DNA from: Pseudonocardia humida
GTDB taxonomy: Bacteria; Actinomycetota; Actinomycetes; Mycobacteriales; Pseudonocardiaceae
Reading direction: 5' to 3'
Length of the DNA: 64,000 bases
Assembly: GCF_023898865.1 (NCBI RefSeq)
Contig: NZ_JAGSOV010000009.1
Location: forward strand, 186,001 to 250,000
The notes under the pieces were generated by a model. That model did no database searches. It was not told the origin of the DNA and was given only the letters and a program-made list of their open reading frames with translations. Each line of letters opens with the position of its first letter. Positions within the stretch are counted from its first letter, which is position 1. Made by a program: the position numbers and the translations under genes. Below are positions 32,872 to 45,243 of the stretch, piece after piece.

Positions 32872-34041
32872 TCAGGCCCGCGGTGCGGCGGCCGGCTTCC
32901 GGCGCCGGTTCAGCAGGGTCAACACCGTGCCCGCGAGCAGCCCCCAGAACGCCGCGCCCACGCCGAGGAAGCCGACCCCGGCCGCGGTCACCACGAACGT
33001 GACCACCGCGGCCTCGCGCCCGTCCGGCTCGGCGGTGGCCGACGTGATGGCGCCGCCCAGCGCGCCCAGCAGGGCGAGTCCGGCGACGGCCTCGACCAGC
33101 ACCGGGGGCGAGGCCAGCAGCAGCGCGGTCGCCGGGCCCGCGGCCAGCCCGAGCAGCCCCAGCCCGATCCCGTTGGTCACCGAGGCGAGCCAGCGCCGGC
33201 TCGGGTCGGGGCCGGCGTCCGGTCCGGCGGAGAGCGCCGCGCTGATCGCGGCCAGGTTGACCGCGTGCCCGCCGGCCGGGGCGCCGGCCATCGTGGCCAG
33301 ACCGGTGGCGACCAGGACGGGGCGCAGCGGCGGGTGGTAGCCGAACTGGGCCAGCACCGCCATCCCGGGCACGTTCTGCGCGGCCATGGTGACCAGGAAC
33401 AGCGGCAGCCCCACGCTGACCAGCGTGGCGGGGTCGAGCACCGGGGTCGTCCAGACCAGCGCCGGGGCCGCGTCGGCGCCGCCCGCCGCCGGGGCGGGGC
33501 CGGTGAGCAGCACCAGCGGGACGGCCACGGCCAGCGCCGCGGGCACCGCCCACGGCGTGGCGAACCGCCCGACCAGCAGCCAGACCCCGATCACCGGCGC
33601 GGCCGGCGCGGGCACCTCGGCCAGCGCCCGCACCGGGGCCAGGCACAGCGGCAGCAGCACCCCGGCCAGCATCGCCCCGGCCACCGGCGCCGGGATGGCG
33701 GAGATCAGGCGCCCGAGGACGGGCACCAGCCCCGCCAGCACGATGAGCGCGCCGCACAGCAGGAACGCCCCGACCGCCGCCGGGAACCCGCCCGGCGGGG
33801 CGCCGGCCGCGATCAGCAGCGCCGCTCCCGGGGTCGACCAGGCGATGCTGATGGGCACGCGGTGGCGCAGCCCCAGCACGACCGCCACGACCGCGCCGGC
33901 CAGGCAGACCGCCAGCAGCCCCGACGCGGCCTGCCGCTGGTCGGCGCCGACGGCTCGCAGGCCCGTCAGCACCACGGCGAACGTGCTGGCGAACCCCACG
34001 AGCGCCGCCACCACCCCGGCCAGCACCGGTTGCCACCGCAC
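32872..34041 (-). CDS. Benzoate/H+ symporter, BenE family
   Basis: A 389-residue, about 12-helix membrane protein. It begins VRWQPVLAGVVAALVGFAST, with ISIAWSTPGAALLIAAG, FLVTMAAQNVPGMAVLAQFG and TMAGAPAGGHAVNLAAISAA as BenE hallmarks. The family imports benzoate with protons, although many actinobacterial members are untested. The GTG at 34041 is fixed by AGGAGGGG just before it. It is divergent from an XRE-cupin regulator, and an 18-bp palindrome lies between the starts. BenE next to an XRE-cupin gene is a recurrent pair, so regulator and transporter probably form a unit. Confidence 0.88.
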   Translation of the reverse strand: MRWQPVLAGVVAALVGFASTFAVVLTGLRAVGADQRQAASGLLAVCLAGAVVAVVLGLRHRVPISIAWSTPGAALLIAAGAPPGGFPAAVGAFLLCGALIVLAGLVPVLGRLISAIPAPVAGAMLAGVLLPLCLAPVRALAEVPAPAAPVIGVWLLVGRFATPWAVPAALAVAVPLVLLTGPAPAAGGADAAPALVWTTPVLDPATLVSVGLPLFLVTMAAQNVPGMAVLAQFGYHPPLRPVLVATGLATMAGAPAGGHAVNLAAISAALSAGPDAGPDPSRRWLASVTNGIGLGLLGLAAGPATALLLASPPVLVEAVAGLALLGALGGAITSATAEPDGREAAVVTFVVTAAGVGFLGVGAAFWGLLAGTVLTLLNRRRKPAAAPRA

Positions 34042-34056
34042 GAGAACCCCTCCTAG

Positions 34057-34074
34057 CGTTCCGTAAACGGAACG
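34057..34074. promoter_or_regulatory. 18-bp palindrome between BenE and XRE-cupin genes
   Basis: CGTTCCGTAAACGGAACG is a perfect 18-base inverted repeat (8-bp arms, AA centre), 15 bases upstream of the BenE start and 11 bases upstream of the XRE start. It is placed to control both genes, most likely bound by the XRE-cupin protein. Confidence 0.8.
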
Positions 34075-34085
34075 GTCGAGCAGAG

Positions 34086-34688
34086 GTGGACGATAGCCCC
34101 GTGCAGCCCCCGCCGACAACCAGCGGCCCCGCCCCGCCCGCCCTCGCCGGCGGCGGCGCCGGGGTCGGCCCGCGGGTGCGCGCCCTGCGCGAGGAGCGCG
34201 GGATCTCGCTGTCCGAGCTGGCCCGCCGGGCGTCCGTGGGCAAGGCCACGCTGTCGGGCCTGGAGACCGGCACCCGCAACCCGACCCTGGAGACCCTGCA
34301 GTCCGTCGCCGCGGCGCTCGGCCTGCCCCTGACCGCCCTGCTGGGCGACCCCGGCGCCGTCGCGGCGGGCGCGATCCGCGGCGCGGCCGTCGACATGCGG
34401 CTCCTGCGCGTCTTCGACGACGGCCCGGTGACCTACGAGCTCTACCGGATGCGCGTGCCCGCCGGGCTCGCCCAGACCTCCCCCGCCCACCACGACGGGG
34501 TCACCGAGCACGTCACGGTGTTCGCCGGGCGGCTGCGCACCGGCCCGCTGGACGGGCCGCTGCTCGTCGGGCCGGGCGAGCACGCGGAGTGGCGCGCCGA
34601 CGCGCCGCACGGCTACGCGGCGCTCGGCGACGCCGACGTGCTGGCCAGCCTGCTGATCCGCTACCCGCGCCCCGCTCCGCCCCGCTGA
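34086..34688 (+). CDS. XRE-family regulator with cupin domain
   Basis: A 200-residue regulator. After a Pro-rich N-terminus, residues about 28-90 form the HTH: VRALREERGISLSELARRAS, VGKATLSGLETGTRNPTLE, TLQSVAAALGLPLTALLG. The C-terminal part (RVFDDGPVTYELYRMRVPAG, HHDGVTEHVTVFAGRLRTG, LLVGPGEHAEWRADAPHGY) is a cupin beta-barrel that likely senses a small ligand. Start GTG at 34086; another GTG at 34101 is possible. It is divergent from BenE and probably controls it through the 18-bp palindrome. Confidence 0.88.
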   Translation: MDDSPVQPPPTTSGPAPPALAGGGAGVGPRVRALREERGISLSELARRASVGKATLSGLETGTRNPTLETLQSVAAALGLPLTALLGDPGAVAAGAIRGAAVDMRLLRVFDDGPVTYELYRMRVPAGLAQTSPAHHDGVTEHVTVFAGRLRTGPLDGPLLVGPGEHAEWRADAPHGYAALGDADVLASLLIRYPRPAPPR

Positions 34689-34745: not shown

Positions 34746-35375
34746 TCAGATGCAGGCCACGACCTTGGCCGTGCCGATGGAGACACCCTCGCTGAACAGC
34801 GAGACGCCGAACGTCTCGTTCAGCGCGGCCGCCGCCTCCGCGGTCAGGGTCGCGCTGACCCCGCGCACGGTGACGCCCTTGTCGTCGGCCTCGACGGAGG
34901 CCTCGGACGCGTCCAGCGCGAGCAGCGGGACGCGGGTGTCGGTGCCGCTGACGCGCGCGGTGAGCACGCCCTCGGCGGTGTCGATGACGAAGTCCTGGAC
35001 ACCCAGGCTCACGTCACCGGCGCTGAACTCCAGGCCGCCGGAGTGCTCGACGGTCCCGAGCGTGGTGGCGGGGTCGAGCGACCCGCCGGTGACCGGGAAG
35101 GAGATCCGGCCGCCCTTGGCGTGGGCGTCGCCGGTCGGGGTGACCGACACGCCGTTGTCGGCGAGCAGGGCCGCGGTGTCCTCGTCGAGCTTCAGGGTGG
35201 TCCGCCCGCCCTGGAGATCGGCCGCACCGCCCTGCTCGTGCGGATCGGTGGCGGGGGCGACCGCGACGGTCGCGGGGGCGGCGGTGGCCGCGGTCGCGGG
35301 GGTCGCGACGGCCAGGCCAGCCGCCCCGACCGCGACGGTCACCAGGGAAAGGCGAAGAGCTCGGCGCAACGACAT
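34746..35375 (-). CDS. Secreted HtaA-like protein
   Basis: A 209-residue protein with a signal peptide (SLRRALRLSLVTVAVGAAG to about residue 30, cleaved near ATAATA). The mature part has repeated beta-strand blocks: GRISFPVTGGSLDPATTLG, TVEHSGGLEFSAGDVSLGVQ, DFVIDTAEGVLTARVSG. This is the rhythm of HtaA domains, which bind haem in corynebacteria, but the haem-binding Tyr/His residues are not obvious. Family membership is plausible rather than certain. A single Cys near the C-terminus (VVACI) remains. Its promoter region is shared with the divergent CarH-like gene. Confidence 0.65.
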   Translation of the reverse strand: MSLRRALRLSLVTVAVGAAGLAVATPATAATAAPATVAVAPATDPHEQGGAADLQGGRTTLKLDEDTAALLADNGVSVTPTGDAHAKGGRISFPVTGGSLDPATTLGTVEHSGGLEFSAGDVSLGVQDFVIDTAEGVLTARVSGTDTRVPLLALDASEASVEADDKGVTVRGVSATLTAEAAAALNETFGVSLFSEGVSIGTAKVVACI

Positions 35376-35448
35376 GGGTGGTTCCTCCGTGGGTCTCGTG
35401 GCCGGGCGCCGGCGGCGCCGTCACCCGATCCAGTGACAACCGTAAGAG

Positions 35449-35465
35449 TTGCACAACGTTTGCAC
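35449..35465. promoter_or_regulatory. TTGCAC direct repeat in HtaA/CarH-like divergent region
   Basis: TTGCAC occurs at 35449-35454 and 35460-35465, exactly 11 bases apart, the arrangement expected for a MerR-type protein binding one face of DNA. A minus-strand -10 (TACGGT) lies nearby toward the HtaA-like gene. No consensus is known for this regulator, so the assignment is inferred. Confidence 0.4.
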
Positions 35466-35572
35466 CACTTGGCGGCGCGCTGGGTCACCATGGGTGCGCC
35501 GGACCGGGCCGAGCAGACTGGGCGAGCGGGCCGCCCGGCTCGACGGGACAGCGGCGGGACGGGACGGGACAG

Positions 35573-36496
35573 GTGCCGGGAGAACAGGGGCGCGCGGACG
35601 ACGTGCTCGGCGTCGCGGCGGTCGCGCGCCGGCTCGGCGTCGCGCCGGCGACCCTGCGGTCGTGGCACCGCCGCTACGGGATCGGGCCGTCGTCCTACAG
35701 CAGCGGGGCCCGCCGCGCCTACACCGCCGAGGACGTGGCCCGGCTGGAGGCGATGCACGCCGCGATGGTGCGCGGCGCGTCCGCCGCCGACGCCGCCCGC
35801 ACCGCACTCGCCACCGGACTCGGCGCGTCCACGGAGCCCACCCCGCCCTCCGGGCGGCAAGGCGGGCGCGGCCTGCGCCTGCCCGACGCCGGTCCCCGCG
35901 TCCGCGGGCTCGGGCGGGCCGCGTCCGCGCTGGACGCGGAGGCGGTCGACGCCGTCCTCGACGACTCGATCACCGCGCTCGGCGTCGCCGCCACCTGGGA
36001 CGGGGTCGCCCGCCCCGTGCTCGTCGCGATCGCCGAGCGGTGGCAGCGCACGTCCACCGGTGTGGAGACCGAGCACCTGCTCAGCGAGTGCCTGCTGCGC
36101 GCCTTCCACCGGGTCGTCGACCGGGCGCCGGTGACCCGCAGTGGCCGACCGGTCCTGCTGGCCGCCGTGCCCGGCGAGGCGCACCACCTGCCCCTGTCCG
36201 CGCTGGCCGCCGTGGTCGCCGAGCGCGGCGTCGGCGCCCGCTCGCTCGCCGCGCTGCCGGAGGCGTCGCTGCGCGCGGCCGTGGACCGCACCGGACCGGC
36301 CGCGGTGTTCCTGTGGGCGCACGGCCCCGGCCCGCACCTCGAGGGGCTGTTCACCGACCTCCCGCGCCCCCGCCCCGGGTGCCGGTGGATCGTCGGCGGC
36401 CCGGGCTGGGCCGGTCAGGACCTCCCGGGCGAGGTGCTGCGCTGCGACACGCTCAGCGAGGCGGCCGACCAGGTGGAGCGCGCCGGCACCGGCTGA
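35573..36496 (+). CDS. CarH-like MerR-family regulator with B12-binding domain
   Basis: A 307-residue protein from a GTG. Residues about 14-80 are a MerR HTH: GVAAVARRLGVAPATLRSWH, RRYGIGPSSYSSGARRAYTA, EDVARLEAMHAAMVRG. The C-terminal part has both hallmarks of the CarH/LitR cobalamin photoreceptors: the light-sensing helix bundle motif W-x9-E-H (W157, E167, H168, within RWQRTSTGVETEHLLS) and the cobalt-ligand motif G-E-x-H (E202, H204) in AVPGEAHHLPLSAL. In Thermus CarH the same residues are W131, E141, H142 and H177, with nearly the same spacing. It should bind adenosylcobalamin as a dark tetramer on DNA and release it in light. The B12 binding and light response are inferred. No carotenoid gene is adjacent. 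Confidence 0.82.
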   Translation: MPGEQGRADDVLGVAAVARRLGVAPATLRSWHRRYGIGPSSYSSGARRAYTAEDVARLEAMHAAMVRGASAADAARTALATGLGASTEPTPPSGRQGGRGLRLPDAGPRVRGLGRAASALDAEAVDAVLDDSITALGVAATWDGVARPVLVAIAERWQRTSTGVETEHLLSECLLRAFHRVVDRAPVTRSGRPVLLAAVPGEAHHLPLSALAAVVAERGVGARSLAALPEASLRAAVDRTGPAAVFLWAHGPGPHLEGLFTDLPRPRPGCRWIVGGPGWAGQDLPGEVLRCDTLSEAADQVERAGTG

Positions 36497-43480: not shown

Positions 43481-43559
43481 GACCCCGCAACGGGTGGGAC
43501 TGCCCAGGGTTCGGGGGAGATGGCGGTCCGGTGGGGTCCCGGGGCACCGCGCGCACCGT

Positions 43560-43601
43560 GTGGCCACGGCGCACACGTCAGGACATGTGCGCGGTGGCCA
43601 C
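43560..43601. repeat. Long hairpin before the subtilase gene
   Basis: Arms 43560-43575 (GTGGCCACGGCGCACA) and 43586-43601 pair over 16 positions with one G-G mismatch, around the 10-base loop CGTCAGGACA. It is 123 bases upstream of the subtilase start. It could be a terminator for the upstream IS remnant or a regulatory hairpin. Confidence 0.7.
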
Positions 43602-43724
43602 TGGGTGTGCGCGGTGGGGGCGCAGGGGGCGGGGCGGTACGCAGAAGTGCGTATTGCCCCGCGAACGGCGTATCCCTCTACTCCGCCGATCGCTCCTCCT
43701 GGCCCCGTCCTAGGAGGAAGCACC

Positions 43725-45243
43725 ATGGCCCGTTCGCTCAACCCCGCTCTCGACCCGCGGCTGCGCCGGCTCGTGCACGCCCAGGACCAGCCCGCGCGGC
43801 TGGACGATCTCACGGCCGCGCAGGTCGTCGCCCGCGACGGTGCCCTGCCGGCCGGCGGGCCGCCGTCGACGCGGGTGCTGGTGCGGTCCGACGGGCCGCC
43901 GCTGCCCGGTACGGCGGGCACCACCTGGACGACCGTGGCCGAGGGCATCCACGCCGTGCAGCTGCCGATCTCCGAGCTGGAGGCGTTGGCCGACCAGCCG
44001 CAGGTGCAGTTCGTGGAGGCCGCGCGGCTGCTGGGGCCGCTGCTGGCGAGCTCGGTGCCGGAGACCCGGGCCGACCGGCTGCGCACCGCGCAGCCGCCGC
44101 GCCCCGCCCTGACCGGGGAGGGGACCGTCGTCGGGATCATCGACTTCGGTCTCGACTTCACCCTGGACGACTTCCGCGCGGCCGACGGCACCACGCGCGT
44201 CGCGTTCCTGTGGGACCAGGGGCTCGTACCGCGGGCGGGTGAGTCGGCCCCGGCCGGTTTCCGCCGCGGCGTGGAGTACGACGCCGCGGCCATCGACGCC
44301 GCGCTCAAGGCCGACGACCCGTTCTCCGTGGTCCGCCACGACCCCGGTCCGGGCAGCCACGGCACCCACGTCGCGGGCACCGCGGCGGGCAGCGGGTGCT
44401 CCGCGGACGCCGATTTCCCCGCCGGCGTCGGGCGGCCCGCTGCCCACCGGGCCGGACCGCAGCCCCAACGAGCTGGAGATCTGGTACTCGCCGCGCGACG
44501 AGCTGCACGTCCGGCTGATCGACCCCACCGGTCGGACGACCTCCGTCGTGATGCCGGGGCAGACCGAGCTGCACGACTTCCCGAGCGGCAACAGCGCCTT
44601 CCTCGACTCGGAGCGGCTCTCCCCGCTCAACGGCGACTCCCGCATCTTCATCGCCGTCGACCCCGGCACGGCCGCGCGGGTGGCGGGCGGGGTGTGGCGG
44701 GTCGAGATCACCGCGGCCCGGGTCCGGTCGGGCCGGTTCGACGCCTGGATCGAGCGCGACGCCCGCGACCCCGCCAACGCCTTCGCCGACCAGTCGTTCT
44801 TCGTCGGGTCCGACTTCGACCCGGTGATGACCCTGGGCACCCCGGCCACGAGCAGGCGCGGCATCAGCGTGGCCAACTACGACCACGTGACCGTGGCCCC
44901 GAGCTCGTCCAGCAGCCGCGGGCGCACCCGCGACGGGCGCGACAAGCCCGAGGTCGCCGCGCCGGGCACCGGGATCGTGTCCTCGGCGTCGCTGGGCGGG
45001 CGCCCCGACGGGCTCGGCGGGGTGCGCCCGGTGCGGACCGAGATGAGCGGGACGAGCATGGCCGCGCCGCACGTGAGCGGCATCGTCGCGCTGCTGCTGC
45101 AGCTGGATCCCACGCTGTCCGCGGCGCAGCTGCGCAAGGCGCTGCTGGCCTCGGCGAACCCGCCGGACGGTGTGGTCCCGTTCGACGCGGCGTGGGGCTA
45201 CGGCCGGGTCGACGCCGTCGAGGCCGCGCGGCTGCTGGGCTGA
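43725..45243 (+). pseudogene. Subtilisin-like (S8) serine peptidase with internal deletion and frameshift
   Basis: From an ATG after TAGGAGG, frame 1 gives an N-terminal propeptide-like domain (GIHAVQLPISELEALADQ), the catalytic Asp (TVVGIIDFGLDFTLDDF) and His (GPGSHGTHVAGTAAGSG). About 44400 the text jumps to a second frame that continues with PNELEIWYSPRDELHVRLI, a C-terminal domain, and the catalytic Ser (MSGTSMAAPHVSG). The stretch between His and PNELEIWY, normally 130-150 residues with the oxyanion Asn (AAGN), is reduced to about 30. So both a deletion and a frame change exist. Asp, His and Ser survive, but the enzyme cannot be active as drawn. Confidence 0.82.

Follow-up and report, generated by a model that had tools for sequence, protein, structure and literature searches.

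A CarH/LitR-type MerR regulator of Pseudonocardia humida, encoded divergently from an HtaA-fold protein, as a putative retargeted duplicate of a whiB-paired regulator

The 64,000-bp stretch of Pseudonocardia humida DNA analysed here (the window) encodes a 307-aa MerR-family regulator with a B12-binding region of the LitR/CarH type (35573..36496, + strand), divergent from a gene for an HtaA-like protein (34746..35375, - strand). Judged from sequence comparison, it is a diverged, retargeted duplicate of the MerR-B12 regulator that is paired with whiB at the groEL1 locus, and the duplicate is now paired with the htaA-like gene in place of whiB. We lean towards the reading that it has been neofunctionalised into an adenosylcobalamin (AdoCbl)-dependent, light-gated local repressor of itself and of the htaA-like gene. 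In the dark, AdoCbl would be held between Trp157, Glu167 and His204, and the oligomeric, AdoCbl-loaded regulator would occupy 11-bp repeats at 35449-35470, repressing both divergent promoters. Illumination with green or blue light, or a lack of AdoCbl, would release the regulator and allow synthesis of the exported protein and of the regulator itself.

The regulator starts with a GTG at 35573, which is conserved in P. lacus (N-terminus VPAEQ...), and not at 35449, the first base of the direct repeat upstream of this GTG. Pfam analysis found MerR_1 (45.7 bits, cut-off 21.6) and B12-binding_2 (26.1 bits, cut-off 23); the Rossmann half was seen by fold only, as Pfam B12-binding (PF02310) was not reported. 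This MerR helix-turn-helix (HTH), four-helix and Rossmann B12-binding architecture is that of CarH/LitR class I, as in Thermus, Bacillus megaterium, Myxococcus and the LitR of Streptomyces coelicolor. A phmmer search against the PDB placed Thermus CarH on top (3whp, E 8.5e-14; 5c8d, 1.1e-13). The AlphaFold2 model had a pLDDT of 89.5, based on an alignment of 45 chosen rows from which relatives without ligand residues were excluded (the ligand counts below come from a separate set of 103 rows), and its top PDB match in Foldseek was CarH bound to AdoCbl and DNA (5c8e, E 4.6e-16). The first-pass annotation had described a CarH-like protein carrying W157, E167, H168 and H204, and both the phmmer alignment and the fold match agree with it. 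The regulator was not filed as a CarH equivalog, because it scored 63.2 bits on NCBIfam NF052513, below the cut-off of 400; two LitR-looking rows with a divergent ECF-sigma match reached just 70 and 59 bits on the same model, so this cut-off is not decisive. Relative to P. lacus, dN/dS was 0.17 over the 76 N-terminal codons and 0.43 over the 223 C-terminal codons.

Aligned with Thermus CarH by phmmer, Trp157 (36041..36043) corresponds to Trp131, which stacks on the adenosyl group, Glu167-His168 (36071..36076) to Glu141-His142, and G201-E202-A203-H204 (36173..36184, all + strand) to G174-E-R-H177, with H204 at the place of the lower cobalt ligand His177. The regulator therefore contains the Wx9EH motif of CarH/LitR class I (W157-x9-E167-H168). 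The P. lacus copy keeps the W, E and H residues, with D-E-V-H in place of G-E-A-H, and Trp157 and His204, whose conservation had been singled out beforehand as the check on the assignment, are retained there and in 13/13 aligned Pseudonocardia groEL-locus copies. Among 103 family rows (102 from loci passing a profile-span filter, plus the window copy), Trp131 was found in 65, Glu141 in 90, His142 in 90 and His177 in 93, with the full set in 53. The pattern D/ExHx2G/P-x41-SxT/V-x22-27-GG is represented by E202-A-H204-H-L-P207 and G275-G276, while the Ser place is Ala249, as it is Ala in 63/104 aligned rows. The dimer salt-bridge pair, which we take to be R176/D201 in CarH numbering, is Ala/Ala, the D201 column being unsure owing to a loop deletion; CarH G160 is replaced by Val and G192 is kept. 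With regard to the four SignatureFinder elements, as given in the accessible part of PMC11796333, EH and GxxH are present, GxxW reads AxxW, and GxxxP is broken (A-A-L-P) in a loop shortened by one residue. CtMerR, in contrast, carries all four. In comparison with CarH/LitR class I, the regulator shares Wx9EH, ExHx2P and tandem 11-bp repeats between divergent genes, but differs in lacking His132, in its altered dimer interface and GxxxP loop, and in having no carotenoid neighbours.

The place of His132 is taken by Gln158 (Glu in P. lacus), and His was found there in 0/103 family rows. The bis-His light state of Thermus CarH, for which His132 is described as the upper ligand in light (PMC10442372, in the portion available), therefore cannot form. 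This absence, together with the altered dimer interface, favours a different, rather unlikely reading, in which the cobalamin-bound regulator would sense B12 supply or redox state instead of light, AdoCbl loading alone switching DNA binding. The cofactor chemistry such sensing needs is probably available, since a Cob_adeno_trans adenosyltransferase (202.8 bits) encoded in the genome points to an ability to make AdoCbl. Nevertheless, the Wx9EH motif, called crucial for CarH photoreceptor activity in the available text of PMC9304148, is intact in both species. Light responses also occur in proteins without His132: those treated in the accessible part of PMC11796333 include CtMerR (Arg at this place) and the photocobilin SasPcob (Gln, as in the regulator). 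CtMerR (PDB 8JBS; phmmer E 1.2e-5) is itself a CarH-type MerR protein, whereas SasPcob combines the B12 light-sensor fold with a biliverdin domain where the regulator has its DNA-binding domain.

The regulator has few close relatives. Within 60 Pseudonocardia genomes, 48 gave some match, many to the HTH alone, and a copy more than 80% identical was found only in the P. humida genome and in P. lacus. The P. lacus regulator spans two contigs, and the htaA-like, XRE-cupin, BenE, folP and folC genes adjoin it as in the window. Other strong matches that were opened sit in the order groES-groEL1-whiB-MerR-B12-(hypothetical)-BldM-like response regulator-SigD-anti-sigma-DUF5319-guaB; these names were given by resemblance and recall, and WhiB, the response regulator and the sigma factor had Pfam matches. 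We take this whiB to be of the WhiD/WhiB3 type and the sigma factor to be SigD/ShbA-like. P. humida has a paralogue at this locus too (contig C78:7387-8421), 52% identical to the window regulator. The two have the same architecture and a divergent partner with a repeat element between, but differ in the partner (htaA-like here, whiB there) and in the half-sites, GCAA/TGCAA here versus (T/C)CAA/TTCAA there.

A 12-row profile that included groEL-locus copies matched 116/150 genomes and 37/46 genera of the family (E ≤ 1e-15), and more widely 99/200 genomes of the order and 153/296 of the class (E ≤ 1e-20). The loci opened were chosen among the best matches rather than at random: those from 20 Pseudonocardiaceae genera had at least three other groEL1-locus genes in 20/20 cases, and among those from the order and class 18/40 lay at the groEL1 locus, in 13 other families, with 22 elsewhere or unplaced. 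Copies at this locus occur even in genomes of 1.3 to 1.6 Mb. In the tree, the window and P. lacus copies formed a pair (support 100) with a branch length of 0.62, and the pair fell within a group that also comprised 35 Pseudonocardiaceae groEL-locus rows (98); a quick method with SH-aLRT support only was used, and the exact join of the pair is unsure given its long branch. The paralogue status had been missed by the first-pass annotation, as had Gln158, the Ala in GxxW, the shortened GxxxP loop and the Ala/Ala pair.

Upstream of the groEL-locus copies lies a 20-bp element with a consensus of about GAACCGCG(C/T)CAAA(A/C)(C/G)TTGTTCAAG, which contains an 11-bp-spaced (T/C)CAA and TTCAA repeat. 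With up to three mismatches it was found at 43/52 groEL loci (a further locus, L047, was dropped as its upstream sequence was missing). The element was spotted by eye in the same loci in which it was later counted, so these counts apply to those loci and cannot serve as an independent test; the controls were family copies elsewhere, P. lacus excluded (0/48), and the reversed pattern, found once at the groEL loci and never elsewhere. whiB is divergent from the MerR-B12 regulator in 49/52 groEL loci, and the element was present in 43 of these 49 and in none of the three loci without whiB. A script placed 42 of the elements between whiB and the regulator, the one at L199, on the other strand, being unplaced. 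In the P. humida genome, the strict form with up to three mismatches occurs once, at the whiB/MerR-B12 place on contig C78.

The full set of W, E, H and E/D-x-H was present in 34/53 groEL-locus rows, at least one ligand residue was missing in 19/53, and the lower ligand His177 was missing in 10/53 (L121-L128, L132 and L142), all ten of which still have the whiB element. B12 dependence may have been lost in the lineages of these ten copies. A tree test of whether ligand losses go together gave no support either way, with few independent pairs. In a separate 15-row clade of further MerR-B12 genes (L129-L131, L133-L141, L145-L147), some of them beside another whiB, EH and ExH are kept in 15/15 and Trp131 is replaced or gapped in 15/15. 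In four other rows (L187-L189 and L220), which resemble litR/litS pairs, a match to the SigD query lies nearby on the opposite strand; the available part of PMC12705666 describes the Streptomyces coelicolor LitR as acting on the litS promoter and using coenzyme B12.

The ligand losses mean that B12 independence is possible in the family, and the LitR/CarH proteins have been divided into classes I-V, some without B12 (PMC9758184, accessible text). The window regulator could thus be a B12-independent MerR protein with a vestigial pocket, responding to another signal or partner as in Myxococcus CarA or class II LitR, a proposal to which we assign a low probability. Its eroded signature glycines point that way, as does its score of 63 bits against the NCBIfam CarH cut-off of 400, but the LitR-looking rows score equally low (70 and 59 bits). 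Moreover, the ligand positions all survive in both species despite the fast-evolving C-terminal half.

The intergenic region between the regulator and the htaA-like gene is 197 bp long and contains two 11-bp direct repeats, TTGCACAACGT/TTGCACCACTT (35449..35470, + strand), the regulator's putative binding site and candidate operator. The aligned place in P. lacus reads TTGCACAACTT/ATGCACAACTT, with the 11-bp repeat conserved. CarH binds tandem 11-bp nnnnTnnACAn sites, and such repeats number three or four in the operators of Thermus and B. megaterium, as reported in the available part of PMC9304148. The window has one full and one imperfect repeat (the second with TGCACC), and P. lacus has two full ones. 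A TTGCAC repeat with 11-bp spacing had been noted between the divergent genes at the outset, and it proves to be real, conserved and in keeping with the CarH operator rule. In dinucleotide shuffles, a TnnACA/TnnAC pair at 11 bp arose in 11/2000 for the window intergenic region and 20/2000 for P. lacus, and plain 11-bp self-similarity in 76/2000 and 9/2000, respectively. The perfect pair TGCACMACNNNTGCACMAC occurs once in the P. humida genome and once in that of P. lacus, each time in the regulator-htaA intergenic region. With up to two mismatches, 1.57 occurrences per window are expected by chance, so it is the exact, conserved form of the repeat that counts.

Read on the - strand (35464-35449), the site is TGCAAACGTTGTGCAA, a variant of the core of the whiB/MerR-B12 element, KYCAAANNTTGTTCAA. 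Three forms of the element were tried against the window operator. The core fits with two mismatches (as good in 1/2000 shuffles), both of them a G before CAA, one per half-site, and with three mismatches in P. lacus (16/2000). The longer form CCGCKYCAAANNTTGTTCAA gave five mismatches in the window (29/2000) and seven in P. lacus (1086/2000), the latter no useful match, and the third form gave five (120/2000). In the MerR HTH and wing (residues 12-76; 35606..35800, + strand), the recognition helix carries His at residue 32 in the window and P. lacus copies and Asp there in 62/102 relatives; among the 53 groEL-locus rows, this residue is Asp in 41 and His in one. In the wing, the window and P. 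lacus copies have Arg at residue 47 and Ala at residue 49, against His and Arg, respectively, in 96/102 relatives each. The regulator and its candidate site may thus have changed specificity together.

A search for a wider regulon with up to two mismatches gave matches near background, 23 versus 15 for the reversed pattern in P. humida and 19 versus 16 in P. lacus. Carotenoid control was considered and rejected, as the 13 kb around the phytoene synthase of P. humida (contig C119) contained no TnnACA or TTCAA pair at 11 bp. The best-conserved intergenic stretch in comparison with P. lacus is one of 20 columns from 35418 (19/20 conserved), which includes an inverted repeat, GTCACCCGATCCAGTGAC (35420..35437), flanked by the direct repeat and the htaA-like start. 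A scan for sigma-70 promoters and terminators found nothing, and no promoter was placed.

The lack of a placed promoter leaves room for a CarH-like regulator without control over the htaA-like gene, in which case the repeat would serve autoregulation only or be the site of another factor. In addition, no MerR-B12 gene lies in the 12-13 kb around any of the four closest HtaA homologues from outside P. lacus (56-61% identical). We nonetheless consider this improbable, since the divergent pair and the repeat are conserved in P. lacus together with neighbouring genes and neither genome has a perfect site other than this repeat.

A light-gated, AdoCbl-dependent local repressor is preferred because CarH is the top match in both sequence and fold, because all ligand positions are kept in the window and P. 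lacus copies on a branch of 0.62 with dN/dS below 1, and because the operator rule fits, the whiB-element core matches the site, and near-invariant DNA-contact residues have changed. The light responses of CtMerR and SasPcob, the probable AdoCbl supply and the uniqueness of the perfect repeat in each genome also speak for it. Counting against it are AxxW and the broken GxxxP (two of the four SignatureFinder elements), the changes at the salt-bridge pair and G160, the fairly high C-terminal dN/dS (0.43), the presence of just two repeats, the second imperfect, the longer whiB element with its five mismatches in the window and no useful match in P. lacus, the missing ligand residues in 19/53 groEL-locus relatives, and the want of a placed promoter.

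The product of the divergent gene, 209 aa in length with an N-terminus resembling a signal peptide by eye, matched Pfam HtaA at 35.4 bits (cut-off 24). Its model had a pLDDT of 71.7, with residues 1-49 unordered, and Foldseek placed it in the HtaA/CR fold (8smu, 1.4e-6; 6jsa, 2.1e-6), while phmmer found no match in the PDB. The HtaA-like identity assigned in the first-pass annotation is thus upheld, and the gene is conserved in P. lacus, yet the haem-related role suggested with it is not supported. In CR domains, the axial tyrosine that binds hemin is conserved, as are a serine and a tyrosine on a propionate (PMC12494546, accessible part); the HtaA-like protein and its P. lacus orthologue contain no tyrosine at all, and so no axial tyrosine for the haem iron. 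Despite the Pfam match and the fold, which it shares with the corynebacterial HtaA/ChtA CR domains (8smu, 6jsa, 9o0k), a light- or B12-controlled surface protein for haem uptake is therefore very improbable, the ligating and propionate tyrosines both being missing, and this reading was set aside. The protein is probably an exported HtaA-fold protein. Beside its gene, in P. lacus too, an XRE-cupin regulator (34086-34688) is divergent from a BenE-like gene (32872-34119), the latter named by eye.

CarH-type photoreceptors are known mostly as switches of carotenoid genes. As a tentative view, held with less than even confidence, the window copy may derive from an old actinobacterial CarH-WhiB module, in which a cobalamin-dependent, light-gated MerR regulator is divergent from whiB across an 11-bp-repeat element. 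In the retargeted copy, the DNA-contacting residues and both operator half-sites would have changed and whiB would have been replaced by the exported HtaA-fold protein. Such a module, if real, would make a locus central to redox and development responsive to light or B12, also in genomes as small as 1.3 to 1.6 Mb, and a light- or B12-gated parent regulator would be an unrecognised input for the WhiB, BldM and SigD-type regulators of the groEL1 locus. The window regulator would be a CarH-type protein with a seemingly single local target outside pigments, and the duplicate a case for joint specificity change of a MerR regulator and its operator. Literature titles and abstracts yielded no MerR-B12 gene beside whiB, which is weak evidence of novelty as subscription papers lay mostly outside the search, and the word cobalamin is absent from the accessible part of a 2013 survey of developmental genes (PMC4255298).

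Some 52 kb ahead of the window, on contig C41, lies a gene for a homologue of 8j2x/8j2w (E 1.8e-87; L153:6791-7834, + strand), structures that we take to be those of photocobilin SasPcob. The encoded protein contains W-x9-EH, GxxH and GxxxP and is encoded beside a 574-aa protein judged PAS-like by eye; it is a candidate second B12 light sensor of this genome. Within the window, a subtilase-like protease at 43494-45243 seems to be split over two frames, one with HGTHVAGT and the other with GTSMAAPHVSG, reflecting either a frameshift or a sequence error.
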